From an uncultured SAR202 cluster bacterium (lineage in GTDB: Bacteria; Chloroflexota; Dehalococcoidia; Lucifugimonadales; Lucifugimonadaceae): a DNA stretch of 64,000 bases. A model generated the notes under the pieces. That model did no database searches. It had not been told where the DNA came from and saw nothing but the letters and a program-made list of their open reading frames with translations. Where the stretch lies: assembly GCA_902620405.1 (NCBI GenBank), contig CACNIC010000002.1, forward strand, positions 1 through 64,000. The letters are read 5' to 3'. Within the stretch, counting starts at the first letter, position 1. Each line of letters begins with the position of its first letter. The position numbers and the translations under genes are program-made. This document shows, in pieces, positions 1 to 50,555 of the stretch.

Positions 1-434
1 CAAAAATTGGAGATTACATTTCTGAAGTGGTTGTTACTTCTGAAGGTCGCTACACTATAAATCTTAATCCAAAGACAGTTAATTATGTGGGCCAAAGTAT
101 TTACCTAATTATTCAGGGCAATCAAAGCATTACTTCTTTACCATTTAATCCAGATGAATTTATAAGTGATGCAAATTACCTTTTTGAAGACTTTGAGTTA
201 AAAATCGAAGAAGATCCTGTACCAACTCCTGAACCTGAAAAAATAATAGTTATAGCAACACCTACTCCAGATGTTCAAAAAACTGAGATGAATGATAATG
301 AAAGTTTAGTTGTAAATGAAGGTGGAGGCTGTGGTGGAGGCAGTTCAAGCATATCCATATTTAGTGTTCTTGTTTCAATTTTAGGTGTTTTGCTATTTAA
401 AAGGTCAAGGAAACATCAAAATAGCGTCATATAA
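1..434 (+). CDS. C-terminal part of a surface protein with Cys-Gly sorting-like tail (5' truncated by window edge)
   Basis: The reading frame is open from base 3, so the gene starts upstream of the window; the GTG at 27 is only the first internal start-like codon. The visible part is a beta-rich segment of about 70 residues, then an acidic, Pro/Thr-rich linker (PVPTPEPE, ATPTPD). The end is a tripartite tail: a glycine-rich motif around a single cysteine (GGGCGGG, Cys codon at 330), a hydrophobic helix of about 16 residues, and a basic KRSRK end. This layout resembles Cys-containing C-terminal sorting signals (MYXO-CTERM or Synerg-CTERM style). I infer an exported, C-terminally anchored protein. 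The function of the ectodomain is unknown. The protease encoded at 21957..23225 ends in a similar tail. Confidence 0.7.
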   Translation, partial: KIGDYISEVVVTSEGRYTINLNPKTVNYVGQSIYLIIQGNQSITSLPFNPDEFISDANYLFEDFELKIEEDPVPTPEPEKIIVIATPTPDVQKTEMNDNESLVVNEGGGCGGGSSSISIFSVLVSILGVLLFKRSRKHQNSVI

Positions 435-11043: not shown

Positions 11044-11568
11044 TCATTTAATTATCTTGTTGCATAATTTTATTGATTCCTCTTTATTTAAACCTTCGCA
11101 CATAATTACAGCATTTTCGTAGATTAAGTAATAAAGATATTTTGCTTTGGCAGAACCTGGGCCAGATCCTGCACCTCTCCTATTAACTCTCCTGTCAGAA
11201 TTACCTTCTTTCCAAGTTACATCTCTTGAGGCAAGTATTGCATTTTCTCCAATTACTTCTTCTACTATTAATTTTGAATTTAATGCTGTTTGATGATCTA
11301 TGTAAAATCTTAATTCATAGTCTCTTGGCTTATTATAATCATCTTTGAACCATCCATAATGAGCTGACAATGCTCCATTTAATTCTGATACATCATATTC
11401 TTTTACTTCTTTAAATCCCTTAGATATAAAATAATCTAATTTTAAAACCTTTCCTGTATTAGAAAATTGATCAATAGTTATTATTTTTTCATTATCATCA
11501 TTACTACAAGAAATATTCAGTACTATTAATATTGTTAATATAAAAATTTGACTATAATTTTTTTTCAT
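11044..11568 (-). CDS. Lipoprotein of a lineage-specific family (paralogue of the one at 50007)
   Basis: The product starts with a short hydrophobic signal and a lipobox ending in Cys (LNISC), so it should be a lipid-anchored extracytoplasmic protein of about 174 residues. I chose the ATG at 11568 over the in-frame TTG at 11577. Function is unknown. It shares an ordered set of motifs with 50007..50555: a GF-x-x-x-x-x-Y-x-V-S start, a YGW strand, an E-x-RFY strand, a GE-[ND]-AI turn, WKEG-x-x-DRR, and a C-terminal Y-x-IYEN followed by CEG and a last Cys. The two conserved C-terminal cysteines might form a disulfide. It overlaps the end of the DUF368 gene. Confidence 0.75.
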   Translation of the reverse strand: MKKNYSQIFILTILIVLNISCSNDDNEKIITIDQFSNTGKVLKLDYFISKGFKEVKEYDVSELNGALSAHYGWFKDDYNKPRDYELRFYIDHQTALNSKLIVEEVIGENAILASRDVTWKEGNSDRRVNRRGAGSGPGSAKAKYLYYLIYENAVIMCEGLNKEESIKLCNKIIK

Positions 11569-12388
11569 ATCTTTCAATTATTTTGATTATTGTTATGCAA
11601 ATTAAAATTGCTAAGAATAAATAAATTAAATTTTCTATTGAGTAGTAATTATTTATTGTAACTTGTGTAAAGAATTTAGGAATTGATCCTAGAATTAGTC
11701 CATAAAAGAAAATTGTTAAGTTGCTTTTGAAATAATTAATTATCTTTGATATCAGTGTCACAGAGGTCACTAATCCTATGATTCCTCCCAATAAAAATAT
11801 AATTAAAAAGGAAAGGTCAAAATTACTAATTGCACTTATTACTTTTTCATATGAACCAATTACGACGAGCATTAAAGAGCCGCTAACCCCAGGGATTATC
11901 ATAAATGACATTGCAAAAATTCCAGAAACTAATGTTACTAACAAACCAGTATTTTCTGTAACATTATCCGGAACTAAATAAATCACTGAACTTAATAGAA
12001 TGCCAGAAAAAAAGAAAATTAAATAGTTACTTTGTTTTTCAATTTTTTTTAAATTCCAGGCTATAAATATTATTAAGAATGAAGAAATAAAAGTAATAGT
12101 TTGTGCCTTATAATTATCAAATAGATATTCTGCTATTCTAGAAAAAGTAAAAACCGAAAGCATTATTCCAGATATTAAAGGTAGTGTAAATATAAGATTT
12201 AAATTTTTATATTCAATTTTTTTTAATTTATAAATCGAATTTATTAAATAATTAATTGGTTTTAATAATTCAAAATATTTTCCAAAAATCATTAAAATTG
12301 TACTCCCGCTAATTGCGGGAAAAAGGTCAGAAAAACCAACTAAAATTCCTAAAAAAAAGTTTTTTAAAAATAATTTTATCTTAGTCAA
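11552..12388 (-). CDS. DUF368 family membrane protein (polyprenyl-phosphate transporter type)
   Basis: This is a polytopic membrane protein with two internally repeated motifs typical of DUF368: FSDLFPAISGSTILMIFG near the N-terminus and IIPGVSGSLMLVVIGSYE in the second half, matching the ADxxPGVSGGT repeats. DUF368 members (PopT) have been reported as polyprenyl-phosphate transporters for envelope building. The frame is open up to an ATG at 12433, with others at 12409 and 12403. I prefer the TTG at 12388, which has GAGGG eight bases upstream and gives the usual short N-terminus. It overlaps the upstream gene by 8 bases. Confidence 0.82.
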   Translation of the reverse strand: MTKIKLFLKNFFLGILVGFSDLFPAISGSTILMIFGKYFELLKPINYLINSIYKLKKIEYKNLNLIFTLPLISGIMLSVFTFSRIAEYLFDNYKAQTITFISSFLIIFIAWNLKKIEKQSNYLIFFFSGILLSSVIYLVPDNVTENTGLLVTLVSGIFAMSFMIIPGVSGSLMLVVIGSYEKVISAISNFDLSFLIIFLLGGIIGLVTSVTLISKIINYFKSNLTIFFYGLILGSIPKFFTQVTINNYYSIENLIYLFLAILICITIIKIIERYEKKL

Positions 12389-15083: not shown

Positions 15084-16757
15084 ATGTTAAAAAATATTTA
15101 TCTTAAATCAATTTTATTAATCTTGTTATTAGTATCATTAGTTACTGCTTGTTCAGATTCAAGCTCCGATGAACTTATGACTTCAAATCAGGAAGTTGCT
15201 GATGACAAGGGTATTGCTCCATCTTTACAGAATGACCAAGCTGGTTCAGGACAATCTGAAGGTGGCACTTTAAAAAGACTATGGGGTGATCCCCCAACGT
15301 TAGACCCTCACCTTGTTACCGACACAACTTCTGCTGGTTTAGTAGTAGAAATGTTTTCTGGTTTAGTAAGCCTAAATTCAGAACTTGAAATAGTCCCCGA
15401 TCTTGCTGAAAGTTGGGATGTTGGTGAAGGTGGCACACAATATACTTTCAACTTAAGAGATGATATTAAATTTTCAGATGGTTCGAATGTAACTGCAAGA
15501 GACTTTATTTACTCATTCAATAGAGCTGCAAATCCAGACACAGAATCACCAGTTGCTGAGTTATATCTTGGAGATATTGTTGGTGCCCAAGATGTAATTG
15601 ACGGAAATGCAACTGAAATTAGTGGGATTAAACTTATAGATGATAAGACAATACAAATTAATATTGATTCGCCAAAGGCATATTTTTTAGCTAAATTAAC
15701 ATATCCAACCGCTTACGTTTTGAAGGAATCAAATGTTAATTCTGGTGAAAATTGGACAGATAATCCTGTTGGCACAGGACCTTTTGCATTGGAAAGGTAC
15801 GATCTTGGGCAAATACTTATTTTAAAGAGAAATGATAATTATTGGGGGGATTTAGCTAAACTTGATCGAGTCGAATTTAACTTGGCCGGTGGGGTTCCAA
15901 TGGCAATGTATGAAAATGGAGAAATCGATATAACAGGAGTTGGATTAGCTGATTTAGAGAGAGTTCAAAATCCTAGTGACCCCCTTAACAATGATTTAGT
16001 AATGGTACCACCTTCATTTACTATAAATTATATAGGTTTCAATGTAACCATGCCCCCATTTGATGACCCAAAATTTAGAATGGCACTAAACTATGCTGTT
16101 GATAAGCAATTAATTGCTTCATCAGTTTACTCGGATTTAGTTAAGCCTGCATATGGTATTTTGCCACCTAATTTTCCAGGTTTTTCAAGTGATGTAAGGG
16201 GGCTTGAATATGATGCAGACAAAGCAGTTAAATTACTTGAGGAATCAAAATATGCTGATCCTAACACTAGACCTCCAATTGTAGTAACGATTCCAGGAAC
16301 AGGTGGCTCTCCAAGCCTTGATATGGAGGTTGTAGCTGATATGTGGGACAGAATACTAGGAGTACAAATTGAAATACAACAGGTTGAATGGGCGACTTAT
16401 TTGCAAGACCTGCACAGAGAAAGACTTCAAGTATGGGGAGGGTCTGGATGGCAAGCAGATTATCCTGATCCACAAGACTTTATTGATATACTTTTTCATT
16501 CAGAAAGCAAAGGTAATCACGGGCTGTACAAAAACAATGAAGTTGATTTATTGCTTGAGCAGGCCAGAACTGATCAAGACCCTCTTTCAAGATTTAGTAA
16601 GTACAACAAAGCTGAGCAACTCATAATTGACGATGCTCCATGGCTACCAATGTGGTTTGATCAAGAAGGCATGGCATTAATTAATTCCAGAGTAAAAGGC
16701 TTTGAGTTTACTCCGTTAATTGTGCCAAAACTCAAAAACGTTTATATTCAAAATTAA
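15084..16757 (+). CDS. ABC transporter substrate-binding lipoprotein (SBP family 5, peptide type)
   Basis: This is the extracytoplasmic binding component of an oligopeptide/dipeptide-type importer. The 557-residue protein has a signal peptide with lipobox LVTAC, then an acidic low-complexity spacer and the SBP_bac_5 domain. Family landmarks are GGTLKRLWGDPPTLDPH, the LAESWDVGEGGTQYTFNLR strand and FRMALNYAVDKQ. The two permease genes follow directly, but no ATPase genes (DppD/DppF) are present in this locus, so they must be encoded elsewhere. The substrate cannot be read from sequence; peptides or other small ligands are possible. Confidence 0.92.
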   Translation: MLKNIYLKSILLILLLVSLVTACSDSSSDELMTSNQEVADDKGIAPSLQNDQAGSGQSEGGTLKRLWGDPPTLDPHLVTDTTSAGLVVEMFSGLVSLNSELEIVPDLAESWDVGEGGTQYTFNLRDDIKFSDGSNVTARDFIYSFNRAANPDTESPVAELYLGDIVGAQDVIDGNATEISGIKLIDDKTIQINIDSPKAYFLAKLTYPTAYVLKESNVNSGENWTDNPVGTGPFALERYDLGQILILKRNDNYWGDLAKLDRVEFNLAGGVPMAMYENGEIDITGVGLADLERVQNPSDPLNNDLVMVPPSFTINYIGFNVTMPPFDDPKFRMALNYAVDKQLIASSVYSDLVKPAYGILPPNFPGFSSDVRGLEYDADKAVKLLEESKYADPNTRPPIVVTIPGTGGSPSLDMEVVADMWDRILGVQIEIQQVEWATYLQDLHRERLQVWGGSGWQADYPDPQDFIDILFHSESKGNHGLYKNNEVDLLLEQARTDQDPLSRFSKYNKAEQLIIDDAPWLPMWFDQEGMALINSRVKGFEFTPLIVPKLKNVYIQN

Positions 16758-20275: not shown

Positions 20276-21361
20276 ATGAAAGTATGTTTAGTTTCTCCTT
20301 ATGACATTTCTCAAACTGGTGGAGTAACAAATCATATAGTAAATTATGCCAATGAATTACAATTAACTGGAAATGAAGTTACTATTCTTTCAACCTCATC
20401 AAATATTAATTTTAAATTAGATCCCATTAAAATTATTAATCTAGGTAAACCCGTCCCTATAAAATTTGGAAGTACTGTTGCCAATATTTTATTATCATGG
20501 AAATCTTTATTTAAAATATATTTTTTCTTTAAAAAAAATAGATTTGATATTGTGCACATTCATGAGCCTTTAGTTCCATTTATTTCTACTTTTTCATTAA
20601 TTTTTTCCAAGAACAAAACTGTTTTGACATTTCATTCAACAATTAAAAAAAGCTGGATGTTTAAGGTTTGGGGATTTATATTTAAGCCTTGGTTAAATAA
20701 AAAAGATTTCTTTATAGCAGTGTCAAAATCAGCTAAAGATTCTTTACTAAATTACAACTATAATCTAAATGTTGAAATTCACCCAAACGGTGTTACAAAT
20801 ACCTTATTTAAAAATCAACAGAATCAAAAAAAAGACAAAATAAAAATATTGTTTGTGGGAAGAAATGAAGAAAGAAAAGGGGCGGAAGTACTTTTAAAAG
20901 CATTTCAAATAATGAAGAAAAATAATATAAAAAAATCATTTGAATTAGTACTGATAGGTCAAGATATTGATAAATTGATAAATAAGTACCCTTCAATTGA
21001 ACAATGTAAATTCATAGGCCATACAGAAGGTGAAAAACTTTACAAACATTATTTTGATTCAGATATTTTATGTGCACCAGCAATCGAAAATGAAAGTTTT
21101 GGAATAATTTTAATTGAGGCAATGGCTTCAAAAAATGTTGTAGTAGCATCTGATATAAGTGGTTATAAGGAATTAATAGATAATAAAAATGGAATATTAT
21201 TTAAAAATAAAGATATAAATGATTTAGCAAATAAATTAACTTTATTGATTGAAAATGATAATTTAAGATTAAATTTAAAAAATTATGGCTATGAATTTTC
21301 AAAAAATTATAAATGGGAATACGTTGCTAAAAAAATATTTAAAACATACAAAACATTATGA
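20276..21361 (+). CDS. GT4 glycosyltransferase, PimA-like
   Basis: This 361-residue GT-B glycosyltransferase has the donor-side E-x7-E motif (APAIENESFGIILIEAMA) of GT4. Its N-terminus (MKVCLVSPYDISQTGGVTNH) matches PimA, the phosphatidylinositol alpha-mannosyltransferase, in the placement of the PY and GGV motifs. The mid-domain NGV and LFVGRNEERKGAEVLLKA fit the same family. The next gene, a CDP-alcohol phosphatidyltransferase of the PI-phosphate-synthase type, overlaps by four bases (ATGA). That strengthens a role in phosphoinositide glycolipid synthesis at the cytoplasmic membrane. Donor and acceptor are inferred. Confidence 0.8.
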   Translation: MKVCLVSPYDISQTGGVTNHIVNYANELQLTGNEVTILSTSSNINFKLDPIKIINLGKPVPIKFGSTVANILLSWKSLFKIYFFFKKNRFDIVHIHEPLVPFISTFSLIFSKNKTVLTFHSTIKKSWMFKVWGFIFKPWLNKKDFFIAVSKSAKDSLLNYNYNLNVEIHPNGVTNTLFKNQQNQKKDKIKILFVGRNEERKGAEVLLKAFQIMKKNNIKKSFELVLIGQDIDKLINKYPSIEQCKFIGHTEGEKLYKHYFDSDILCAPAIENESFGIILIEAMASKNVVVASDISGYKELIDNKNGILFKNKDINDLANKLTLLIENDNLRLNLKNYGYEFSKNYKWEYVAKKIFKTYKTL

Positions 21362-21954
21362 ATGATGTATTTGAAAAATATAGGATCTCATTAAGATCTG
21401 TACTTGATAGTTTTTTAGTTAATCCAATTTTATTTTTATTATTAAAACTTAAATTAACACCTAATGCAGTTACATTTTTAGGCTTTTTAATATGTTGTAT
21501 TTCAGCATATTTCATTTCTTCTGGAAGTTTTTTGGTAGGAGGACTTTTAGTACTGTTTTCTGGATTTATGGATATATTCGATGGAGCATTGGCTAGAAAA
21601 ATGGAACTAATTACAGATAGAGGTGCTTTCTTAGATTCAACATTTGATAGGCTTAGTGAAGCTATTGTTCTAATTGGCTTAATATATTTTTTTTCAACTT
21701 CAAATGAAACTAATCTTGTTTTGTTGACATCATTATCTTTAGTATTTTCGATATTAATCAGTTATTTAAGAGCCAGGATCGAAGGATTGGGTTATAATTC
21801 TAAAGGTGGTTTTTTTACAAGACCAGAAAGAGTGTTAGTTGTCAGTTTAGGTTTAATTTTTTTTAGCCCTGAATTAACTGTTACTCTGTTAGCGATTGCA
21901 ACAACAGCAGGACTTTTTCATCGATTTTTAATTTTTTGGAGAATACTTAAATAA
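21358..21954 (+). CDS. CDP-alcohol phosphatidyltransferase, PI-phosphate-synthase type
   Basis: This 198-residue membrane enzyme has the full CDP-alcohol motif D-x2-DG-x2-AR-x8-G-x3-D-x3-D (DIFDGALARKMELITDRGA, then FLDSTFD). Its C-terminal half has SYLRARIEGLG and GGFFTRPERV, which match the inositol-phosphate-binding region I remember from mycobacterial PgsA1 better than the glycerophosphate type. I infer synthesis of phosphatidylinositol phosphate from CDP-diacylglycerol and inositol phosphate. PgsA (PG-phosphate synthase) is the alternative. It is translationally coupled to the PimA-like gene before it. No phosphatase or acyltransferase of a full PIM pathway is adjacent. Confidence 0.82.
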   Translation: MNDVFEKYRISLRSVLDSFLVNPILFLLLKLKLTPNAVTFLGFLICCISAYFISSGSFLVGGLLVLFSGFMDIFDGALARKMELITDRGAFLDSTFDRLSEAIVLIGLIYFFSTSNETNLVLLTSLSLVFSILISYLRARIEGLGYNSKGGFFTRPERVLVVSLGLIFFSPELTVTLLAIATTAGLFHRFLIFWRILK

Positions 21955-21956
21955 TA

Positions 21957-23225
21957 ATGAAAAATTTAATTAAGACTTTTTTTCTAATATTTATTTTCTT
22001 TTTTTCTATATCTGGAAATAAATATATTTATGCTGATCAGGAAAATGTTATTGACTTTGGAGTTCAGTCGGAAATTCCACAGGGAATAAGATTTAATATT
22101 GAGCTTACTGATTATGAAAATATTCAAGATATTCAAGTAAAATTCAAAATAGATGGCAGGAAATCCTTTCAGTATGAATATCTTAAATTACCAAAAGGAA
22201 ATGAATCTATAGATCATTTCTTTTCAACTCTTCAATCAAGTAGGTATATGCCCCCTGGAAGCAAGATAGAATATTATTTTGAGATTTTCAATAAAGATGG
22301 TTCTTCTTTTAGAACTGAAAAAAAGTATGATGTACTTTTAGATAGTAGGTTCAACTGGGATATTGTCCAAGGTGAAATTGTAGATGTTTATTATCATGGA
22401 CCAGTTTCAAGGCGGGCAAAAAATGTACTAGAGGCTTGTGATAAATCTGTTAAAGATATATCTGAATTATTGGGCGTTGAGTCAAACGATAGAATTTCCT
22501 TAGTAATGTACAACAATTATTCAGAAATGTTTGATGTTGTTGTGAAAAAAAGTCAAACTCAGGCAGGGTCTCTTATTACAGAAGGCCAAGCATTTGCTAC
22601 TGAAAATATTGTTATTGTAGACGGCGGTTCAAGATCAGCATTAGGCGTTTCAACGCATGAAATTACTCATATAATTGTTGCTAGAGCTACAAAGGATTCT
22701 TATACTGGCGTGCCATTGTGGCTAAATGAAGGTCTCGCAGAATATGGAAATATTGAACCAGATTCCGGATATGATAGATATTTAGAATGGGCAGTTGACA
22801 CAAACAGATTATTCCCTTTTTCTTCTCTAAATAGATTTCCAGGAAACCCAAATCTAACTCTTGTTGCTTACGGACAATCAAGATCGTTTATTGAATATTT
22901 AGTTAAACAATACCCAAAGCAAAATATGAAAAATCTCATGAAAGGCATATCTGATAGAAAATCTTTTGACGATAGTTTTCTTGCTGCTTATGGAAAAAAT
23001 TTAAATGATATTGAAAGAGATTGGAGATCTACTTTAACATCAAATCAAAGTAGTGCACCTATAATAAAGACAGAAAATATCGAAGTTGAATCTAAAGAAA
23101 ATGGAACTTGTGGAGAGGGAAGGATGGGTTTCGAAACTATGTTAATAATTATACTAATATTTACTATATTCGTAAAAAAATATAATTTAAATTATTTTAA
23201 ACGTAAAAAAATTGGTATTACTTAA
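21957..23225 (+). CDS. Exported gluzincin-type metallopeptidase with Cys-Gly C-terminal anchor
   Basis: The 422-residue protein starts with a hydrophobic signal segment ending around YIYADQ. An immunoglobulin-like or beta-rich region of about 120 residues follows. A peptidase_MA-like zinc protease domain comes next, with HEITH (HExxH) in STHEITHIIVARAT and a downstream glutamate in WLNEGLAEY. The end is tripartite: GTCGEGR with Cys385, a hydrophobic helix, and a basic KRKK tail, resembling the tail of the protein at 1..434. I infer a surface protease anchored after processing at the Cys region. It starts two bases after the phosphatidyltransferase stop. Substrate unknown. Confidence 0.82.
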   Translation: MKNLIKTFFLIFIFFFSISGNKYIYADQENVIDFGVQSEIPQGIRFNIELTDYENIQDIQVKFKIDGRKSFQYEYLKLPKGNESIDHFFSTLQSSRYMPPGSKIEYYFEIFNKDGSSFRTEKKYDVLLDSRFNWDIVQGEIVDVYYHGPVSRRAKNVLEACDKSVKDISELLGVESNDRISLVMYNNYSEMFDVVVKKSQTQAGSLITEGQAFATENIVIVDGGSRSALGVSTHEITHIIVARATKDSYTGVPLWLNEGLAEYGNIEPDSGYDRYLEWAVDTNRLFPFSSLNRFPGNPNLTLVAYGQSRSFIEYLVKQYPKQNMKNLMKGISDRKSFDDSFLAAYGKNLNDIERDWRSTLTSNQSSAPIIKTENIEVESKENGTCGEGRMGFETMLIIILIFTIFVKKYNLNYFKRKKIGIT

Positions 23226-41491: not shown

Positions 41492-41926
41492 ATGAATAAA
41501 TTTTTAATTCTAACTTTTTTATCTATTATTTTTATTATTTCATGCTCTGGAGATAAATCTGAGGCAAGGATCAGTTTGGAAAATTATTTAACGCATTTGA
41601 AAAATGAAGAATTTCAAAAAGCTTACAGTTATATGTCCAATAATTTAAAAGAAAAATGTGAATTTAATGAATTTGAAAATAAAGCATTAAGTAATTATGA
41701 AGCTATAAGGCATTCAAGAATAATTTATTCTGGAGAAAGAGTAAGTAATGAAAAAGTTAAAATCGAATTTATTATTAAAATTGATGAAATGGAAGTTAAC
41801 TTATTTGATTTACAAATAATGGACCCGTATGCTTCTGAAGAAACAGCTACATTCATTTCTGAATCAAATAATTGGAAGCTTGATAATCTAATTTGGCCAG
41901 TTGATTGGTGTGAGGATATTAAATGA
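41492..41926 (+). CDS. Lipoprotein with NTF2-like (DUF4878-like) domain
   Basis: This 144-residue protein has a signal segment and lipobox ending FIISC, so it should be anchored in the membrane. The mature part begins with a helix (ARISLENYLTHLKNEEFQKAYSYMSNNLKEKC) typical of small NTF2-like/DUF4878 domains, then beta strands ending in a C-terminal DWCEDIK. Function unknown. It overlaps the next gene by four bases (ATGA), so both are made together. The family call is tentative. Confidence 0.68.
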   Translation: MNKFLILTFLSIIFIISCSGDKSEARISLENYLTHLKNEEFQKAYSYMSNNLKEKCEFNEFENKALSNYEAIRHSRIIYSGERVSNEKVKIEFIIKIDEMEVNLFDLQIMDPYASEETATFISESNNWKLDNLIWPVDWCEDIK

Positions 41927-45824: not shown

Positions 45825-46442
45825 TTAATCCTTCTCAATAAGTTTTACTGCTAAATCTTCAAGAAATTTTATTGTTACATCGCTTGAGTCTCTTAATGGT
45901 TCAGCCATCAAGACTGTATTACCGATAATTATATATTCAGTGTAAAGAGGTTCTCTTCGTGGGCATGACCTTGAATTTAAAATTTGTAATTCATTGTCAT
46001 TAAATAGCTTTAATTTATTTAAAAGCAGGGTATTTTCAATTCCAAAATTAAGTTCTTCTTTGTGTCTTAATTTTATTCCGCCTCGCCCTGTCCACCCTCC
46101 TGTGTCACCGTGGCCTCTACATTTAGTTTTCTCGACATTAGGCCCGTGGGCAATATTTTTTTCAACTACTTCAATTATATTTGTTTGTTCTTGAGCAGAC
46201 ATTTTTCCTTTTAAATTAGCAATTTCGGCAGAGGGATACATTAAAACAGCTACCTCCCTGCCCTTATAGAATGCCCACTTTGATTCAATTGATTCAGGAA
46301 AAAATGTATCAAAATCTCCTCGTACTTTTATACCAACAGATTTAATATCTTCAATAGAATATACTGTATCTGTTTCTAAATTGACTGAACTAGAACAACT
46401 TAATAAAAAAATTATTGAGAATATTGCGACAATTTTTTTCAT
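45825..46442 (-). CDS. Lipoprotein of unknown function
   Basis: This 205-residue protein begins with a signal segment and lipobox IFLLSC. The mature part has AVLMYPSAEIANLKGKMSAQEQ, a Gly/His-rich stretch (RGHGDTGGWTGRGG) and a C-terminal EYIIIGNTVLMAEPL. The order of an A-x-x-x-A helix and a late Y-x-I-x-x-N-x-[IV]-[LI] strand recalls the lipoproteins at 11044 and 50007. The similarity is low and a shared origin is only a suggestion. Cysteines near residues 108 and 159 might pair. It lies just outside the tRNA-bounded segment. Confidence 0.72.
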   Translation of the reverse strand: MKKIVAIFSIIFLLSCSSSVNLETDTVYSIEDIKSVGIKVRGDFDTFFPESIESKWAFYKGREVAVLMYPSAEIANLKGKMSAQEQTNIIEVVEKNIAHGPNVEKTKCRGHGDTGGWTGRGGIKLRHKEELNFGIENTLLLNKLKLFNDNELQILNSRSCPRREPLYTEYIIIGNTVLMAEPLRDSSDVTIKFLEDLAVKLIEKD

Positions 46443-50006: not shown

Positions 50007-50555
50007 TTATTTTTTTAAACTATCAATTAGCAGGCTACATCTTCTAAGTGATTCTTCAGATTTATGCCCTTCACAAAGAATAATTAAATTTTCGTAAATA
50101 ATATAATCTCCATATTTTGGTGAACTATTACTGCCTATAGCCGCACCAATTGAACTTCCATCGGTTGGGGTGGATATTGTCCTTCTATCCTTTATCCCTT
50201 CTTTCCATGATGCATCCCTTTTTCTAATTATTGCATCTTCACCTGTTGCTTCTTCAGCAAAAGACCTGCCAAAATTTACTGCATCTTTATGAGATTCATA
50301 AAATCTAATTTCAAAATCTTTATTTTCTTCCTCTCCGACATTTTTCCACCCATAAACTGCACTCTTTGCTTTTGGTAAGTCACTTACATTGTATTTTTTA
50401 TTTATTTTGAATCCTGAAGCTAAAAATATATCTTCATTCAAGACAGAGCCCGTATTTGATACTTTTTCTAAAATTTGAATTTCTTTATGGCCACTTGAAC
50501 ATGAATAAAAAAAGACAGCACAAATAAGTAAAATAATTTTAATTTTTAATGACAT
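50007..50555 (-). CDS. Lipoprotein, paralogue of the one at 11044
   Basis: This 182-residue protein has a signal segment with lipobox VFFYSC. It aligns along its length with 11044..11568: SNTGSVLNEDIFLASGF against SNTGKVLKLDYFISKGF, then YNVSDL, YGW, E-x-RFYESHKDA, EEATGEDAI, WKEGIKDRR, and a final YIIYENLIILCEG with a later Cys (RRC). It is therefore a second member of the same family, with the same two C-terminal cysteines. Function unknown; probably surface-exposed. Its start overlaps the end of the upstream methyltransferase-like gene by 17 bases. Confidence 0.78.
   Translation of the reverse strand: MSLKIKIILLICAVFFYSCSSGHKEIQILEKVSNTGSVLNEDIFLASGFKINKKYNVSDLPKAKSAVYGWKNVGEEENKDFEIRFYESHKDAVNFGRSFAEEATGEDAIIRKRDASWKEGIKDRRTISTPTDGSSIGAAIGSNSSPKYGDYIIYENLIILCEGHKSEESLRRCSLLIDSLKK

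Follow-up and report, generated by a model that had tools for sequence, protein, structure and literature searches.

Members of SAR202 are among the most abundant bacteria of the dark ocean. Their cells are described as monoderm, with an S-layer-like coat and without genes for peptidoglycan synthesis (PMC10444878). Since these bacteria have neither a cell wall nor an outer membrane, the way in which they retain proteins at the surface is an open question. It was raised here by two predicted secreted proteins that end in a cysteine, a hydrophobic helix and a basic cluster. Both are encoded in the window, the stretch of 64,000 bases analysed in this work, which represents bases 1-64000 of contig 2 of an assembly of 966,721 bases (70% complete). 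The window is from the marine SAR202 order of the Chloroflexota, near Candidatus Lucifugimonas marina, whose order Candidatus Lucifugimonadales corresponds to GTDB o__UBA1151 (PMC10444878). Its GC content is 31%, and the genomes of its genus are small and AT-rich, which fits the streamlined SAR202 described in PMC11994032.

The first protein is encoded by an open frame at 3-434 (+ strand). This frame is incomplete and its 5' end is missing, because the window begins at base 1 of the contig. What it contains is the 3' portion of the gene for a secreted stalk protein, and the full fragment gave no match in Pfam or NCBIfam. Its tail reads ...NEGGGC-GGGSSS-ISIFSVLVSILGVLLF-KRSRK-HQNSVI, with the GGGC motif at 321-332 (Cys codon 330-332), the hydrophobic helix ISIFSVLVSILGVLLF at 351-398 (Kyte-Doolittle 2.55 over 17 aa) and the basic cluster KRSRK at 399-413, all on the + strand. 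The second protein, at 21957-23225 (+ strand), is a secreted metallopeptidase of the Peptidase_MA_2 family (PF13485, E 1.1e-30) with an N-terminal signal peptide and an HExxH zinc motif (HEITH, 22656-22670, + strand), of which H234, E235 and H238 were invariant in 15 aligned relatives. Its sole match in NCBIfam was flagellinolysin, far below the cut-off of that model. The tail of this protein reads GTC-GEGRMGFETMLIIILIFTIFV-KK...KRKK, with the Cys codon (GTC-GEG) at 23109-23111, the helix TMLIIILIFTIFV at 23136-23174 (Kyte-Doolittle 2.42) and the basic end at 23175-23210, again on the + strand. Both tails, already pointed out in a preliminary description of this DNA, were thus read directly from the sequence. 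That description had called the two proteins unlinked, but the stalk and metallopeptidase genes lie about 19-24 kb apart on the same contig in seven relatives (G001, G005, G008, G013, G014, G025 and G034). Lipobox-like N-terminal signals (e.g., LLSCSSS) were also seen in the window at 11044-11577, 15084-16757, 41492-41926, 45825-46442 and 50007-50555, and these protein starts suggest that the genome probably also encodes the usual pathway for N-terminal lipoproteins.

The metallopeptidase gene is part of a conserved gene row at 20276-23225, consisting of a glycosyltransferase, a CDP-alcohol phosphatidyltransferase (21358-21954, + strand; PF01066, E 1e-17) and, immediately after it, the tail-bearing metallopeptidase. 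Among loci L022-L051, the phosphatidyltransferase was found in 30/30 and the glycosyltransferase in 26/30. The phosphatidyltransferase was considered as a link to a lipid donor and rejected as not specific, since it also adjoins the metallopeptidase in 9/21 outside loci (1.5 kb flanks).

The metallopeptidase was present in 50/60 genomes. Its C-termini were compared among the fetched orthologues, named relatives and other Dehalococcoidia, the last represented by 30 loci taken from 126 genomes with a match. Order-type metallopeptidases were defined by a profile A2 score of at least 295 bits (n = 101; the set extends beyond the order to two genomes, G079 with the Cys and G068 with no helix). A C-terminal helix was found in 97/101 of them, the rows without one being set aside (L208, L215, L228 and L272), and the Cys stood just before the helix in 92/97. 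Among the more distant Dehalococcoidia outside this set, 0/18 orthologues with a helix had the Cys (Fisher p 7e-17, without correction for shared descent). Exactly one Cys occurred within the last 60 aa in 90/92 Cys-bearing tails. The rest of the tail has diverged, with a mean column identity of 29% in an alignment restricted to rows with the Cys, which is therefore invariant there by design. The Cys was preceded by G, S or A in 78/92 tails and followed by S, N or G in 67/92, which resembles the -1 and +1 positions of a lipobox. Two metallopeptidases of groundwater Chloroflexota (L208 and L228) stop 7-9 residues past a Cys and have no helix. The metallopeptidase match in G005 (L026) contains two internal TAA codons, pointing to a possible frame error or a decaying end.

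The presence of the Cys was coupled to the strength of the helix. Median helix hydrophobicity was 1.88 in tails with the Cys, compared to 2.91 in the five Cys-less tails of the lineage (p 2e-4) and 2.68 in those outside (p 5e-9); these p-values are overstated, as the compared sequences share ancestry. All five Cys-less order-type exceptions (L029, L159, L167, L174 and L211) had strong helices (2.39-3.13). The metallopeptidases of the distant Dehalococcoidia likewise end in an ordinary, stronger helix without the Cys, as in a plain anchor. The helices of the two window proteins are fairly hydrophobic and closer to the Cys-less group than to the Cys-tail median.

The stalk family showed the same pattern. 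It was present in 20/60 genomes, including that of the window, and its orthologues are about 345-505 aa long and combine a signal peptide with two repeated domains and a TPTP stalk. The Cys was found in 30/32 readable tails, two further rows having been set aside, one that runs of N made unreadable and one that was a short, spurious match. The two Cys-less tails had helix values of 3.35 and 2.79, compared to a family median of 2.05. The residue before the Cys was often F, L, D or M (17/30), unlike a lipobox. Loss of the Cys among orthologues had been named in advance as the result that would speak against a sorting signal, and in both families the Cys was kept. Taken together, the counts and helix values show selection on the Cys and its coupling to a weak helix, which is what a tail that undergoes processing would be expected to show. 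Comparison of the sequences makes a solid case that the Cys tail is real, under selection and lineage-wide in the SAR202 order.

In 13/15 loci that extend far enough upstream to show it, the stalk gene is immediately preceded by one that encodes a large secreted protein. This protein is about 980-1290 aa long where complete, and Ig-like domains were found in both scanned members. These genes, such as those at 7420-11229 of L293 (- strand) and at 4318-7284 of L299 (+ strand), encode candidate SAR202 S-layer proteins. In the archaeal Sulfolobales, SlaA and SlaB are the S-layer coat and stalk pair. The proposed SAR202 pair has a similar layout, a large putative coat protein beside a stalk protein that ends in a membrane helix, and differs in that the SAR202 stalk adds a Cys tail. 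Because slaA and slaB genes have been reported in SAR202 (PMC11994032), we propose that the large secreted protein and the stalk protein may be a coat protein and its membrane stalk.

The preliminary description inferred a genome-wide sorting system and suggested a search of the proteome for further tails. In the genome of the window, a profile built from 37 tails gave three matches at E <= 10. Two were the known tails (7.6e-11 and 1.3e-7), while the third (E 0.31) spans only profile positions 11-36 and not the Cys part. In 60 genomes, a 38-position tail profile (E <= 0.1) matched 42, mostly with 1-3 matches each and chiefly in the stalk and metallopeptidase families, the weakest matches being without the Cys part. 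The extra tail proteins of relatives were stalk paralogues and unlike proteins (L306, L308, L309 and L310). The signal is therefore carried by other proteins in relatives, but the many substrates implied by a genome-wide system were not found: the repertoire is tiny, with two tails in the 70% complete genome of the window and mostly 1-3 in relatives, and two tails are few for a dedicated enzyme. A broader tail profile matched 17 of 196 genomes of the class at E <= 0.01. Readable Cys tails outside the order were seen in families f31 (G062, G107), f48 (G079) and f49 (G100, G210), at loci L441, L443, L444, L445 and L446; four weaker matches outside the order (G130, G073, G083 and G139) gave no clear complete tail.

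The tails were compared with known C-terminal signals, since their layout had been likened to MYXO-CTERM-type signals. MYXO-CTERM (TIGR03901), the signal of the myxosortases MrtX, MrtC and MrtP, shares with the SAR202 tails an invariant Cys in a Gly-rich motif, a short helix, a basic end and an N-terminal signal peptide, and its cleavage by MrtX depends on the Cys (PMC11980579). The model matched 22/55 tails weakly (best pooled E 0.00096). Among the 31/55 tails scored individually, none reached the cut-off of 20 bits, the best scoring 18.7, and the window proteins gave no match. The SAR202 tails also differ from MYXO-CTERM in having 1-3 substrates per genome rather than dozens, in belonging to a monoderm without an outer membrane and in that most genomes of the SAR202 genus have no CPBP protease. 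JDVT-CTERM (NF033191), the signal of MrtJ, likewise has an invariant Cys, and many tails of the order have, as it does, an acidic residue close to where the helix begins; it has also been assigned to a CPBP protease (PMC11980579). The JDVT-CTERM model matched 8/55 tails. One, from L235, scored 29.4 against a cut-off of 27, which was missed by 29 other individually scored tails and by the first window tail. Short tail models cross-react, as the L235 tail also passed a loose LPXTG model and another tail reached PEP-CTERM (16.1 against 16); neither window tail contains an LPXTG motif, and SAR202 is without the peptidoglycan synthesis (PMC10444878) that LPXTG attachment calls for. Unlike JDVT-CTERM, whose MrtJ is encoded beside the single target gene, the SAR202 tails showed no recurrent multi-pass membrane-protease neighbour in 20 loci (16 of the stalk family and 4 others), part of the neighbour families being named by Pfam.

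GlyGly-CTERM (TIGR03902), the signal of the rhombosortase RssP, resembles the SAR202 tails in its Gly-rich motif, helix and basic end and in that the genome encodes a rhomboid. In the GlyGly system a rhomboid cleaves the tail behind the di-glycine (PMC13393428), whereas the conserved residue in SAR202 is the Cys and not a Gly pair, and neither an outer membrane nor type II secretion is expected. Hardly any of the tails has a name in NCBIfam. Overall, the tails appear to work like the MYXO/JDVT/Synerg group, whose layout they share, but by the criteria applied they would not count as members, with some tails just below the MYXO-CTERM cut-off and one above that of JDVT-CTERM.

Our main reading, to which we give a probability of about 0.6, is that the SAR202 order uses the tails as a C-terminal sorting signal of the Cys type on very few surface proteins, which would be fixed by a lipid after export, lipidation and cleavage. 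The protein would be exported by Sec through its normal signal peptide and then halted in the membrane by the weak helix and basic residues at its C-terminus. The Cys would now lie immediately outside the bilayer, where an Lgt-like enzyme may lipidate it, after which an intramembrane protease would cut off the helix and the basic end. The protein would stay fixed by its lipid in a cell without peptidoglycan. The stalk protein would serve as the membrane anchor of the neighbouring large surface-layer protein, and the metallopeptidase would be a surface enzyme. Such a sorting mechanism is plausible; lipidation, cleavage and the S-layer role are steps that we infer.

The order-specific rhomboid clade may be the processing enzyme wherever it is present, a tentative assignment that we hold to be less likely than not. 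A rhombosortase-type protease had been suggested as a partner, and one rhomboid (PF01694) was above the cut-off in the genome of the window, as well as in 5/9 other members of the genus. Against TIGR03902, this rhomboid scored 54.0 bits and two others of the order 45.7 and 52.5, all below the cut-off of 84, so that a related rhomboid is present but not a recognized rhombosortase. The broad rhomboid family was uninformative, being present in 114/148 genomes of the class, and a subfamily tree was therefore built. The tree contained a clade confined to the order, with 42 rows of the order and 0/80 from outside (SH-aLRT 95 in a smaller tree); the 80 outside rows are a sample rather than every outside match, and four long-branch or duplicate rows were left out of the larger tree. 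The rhomboid of the window genome has GASG and a later AHLGG, and 38/41 clade members matched both motifs in a simple pattern. In order genomes at least 80% complete, with tail status assigned by hand, the clade was found in 33/41 tail-bearing and 0/7 tail-less genomes (p 9e-5), or in 9/17 and 0/7 when counted by family (p 0.02). Tail-less here means no metallopeptidase orthologue and no profile match or, in G052, an orthologue without the Cys. In genus g5, whose metallopeptidase has lost the Cys, the order-specific rhomboid has a long branch in the tree (L130, L128 and L117), and the copy of G023 has GSSS instead of GxSG. Against this assignment, the clade was absent from eight tail-bearing genomes (G039, G040, G042, G045, G046, G049, G050 and G057) and had no rows from tail-bearing genomes outside the order. 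Moreover, rhomboids are common housekeeping proteases, and shared ancestry accounts for much of the correlation. For the genus of the window, this rhomboid is the best candidate protease found, because CPBP and exosortase are missing and it is the sole candidate in the window genome. Exosortase/archaeosortase (PF09721) was rejected, with none in the window genome and matches above the cut-off in 2/60 relatives.

Somewhat less probable, at roughly one chance in four, is that the tails act as simple membrane anchors and are never removed, with the Cys acylated or forming a disulfide between neighbours and no protease involved. None of the protease families tested tracks the tails without gaps, and both CPBP and the order-specific rhomboid are absent from tail-bearing G039 and G040. 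Outside the order, orthologues of the metallopeptidase are anchored by a plain helix, and the two helices of the window are hydrophobic enough to anchor. However, helices are weak where the Cys is present and strong in relatives without it, a coupling for which a permanent anchor has no need, and the tail layout equals that of signals known to be cut. The Cys and the weak helix were gained or lost together in several separate lineages, which argues for processing over a permanent anchor.

We consider it unlikely that a CPBP protease of the myxosortase kind processes the tails groupwide, its copies being too diverged or missing from the assembly where no match was found. CPBP is the enzyme experimentally shown for a Cys-type signal, and the JDVT-CTERM signal, whose cut-off one SAR202 tail passes, is assigned to CPBP as well (PMC11980579). 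CPBP (PF02517) was present in 27/27 searched family members outside the genus of the window (G010-G036) and in all four tail-bearing genomes checked outside the order (G062, G079, G100 and G107). In order genomes at least 80% complete, it was found in 33/41 tail-bearing and 2/7 tail-less genomes (p 0.01 by genome, 0.18 by family). However, the co-occurring CPBP-family protease that had been expected was absent from the genome of the window and from 8/10 genomes of the genus in all (G000-G005, G008 and G009), including ones 89% and 83% complete, and from six other tail-bearing genomes (G038, G039, G040, G044, G053 and G059). CPBP is also common in the class (110/148 genomes), where most metallopeptidases are without the Cys, and the CPBPs of G006 and G029 scored 38.9 and 28.0 against a Mrt_core cut-off of 100. 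As a partner, CPBP was ruled out for the genome of the window, and at the level of the broad family its distribution does not follow that of the tails; a CPBP tree was set aside because of too many fragments and long branches. Finally, the linkers of the tails are rich in Gly and Ser, but chance or composition placing an accidental Cys before ordinary helices is refuted by the Cys counts (92/97 and 30/32, a single Cys in 90/92 and 0/18 outside).

A further possibility, speculative and in our view improbable, is that a SAR202-specific rhomboid took over a Cys-type signal elsewhere assigned to CPBP glutamic proteases, and that the tail fixes by lipid the S-layer stalk of a wall-less bacterium. 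Such a takeover would mean that lineages like the genus of the window could lose CPBP and yet keep the tails. Among the papers listed by full-text literature searches, none dealt with Cys sorting tails in SAR202 or Chloroflexota, and the Haft 2024 survey, the key one in the field, may mention them. The sorting-signal reading can be tested, as there are 1-3 substrates per genome and cultured strains of Candidatus L. marina, and the same metallopeptidase with and without the Cys in sister lineages provides a built-in control. The findings also extend Cys-type sorting tails to the Chloroflexota, where the expected CPBP enzyme is not always present.
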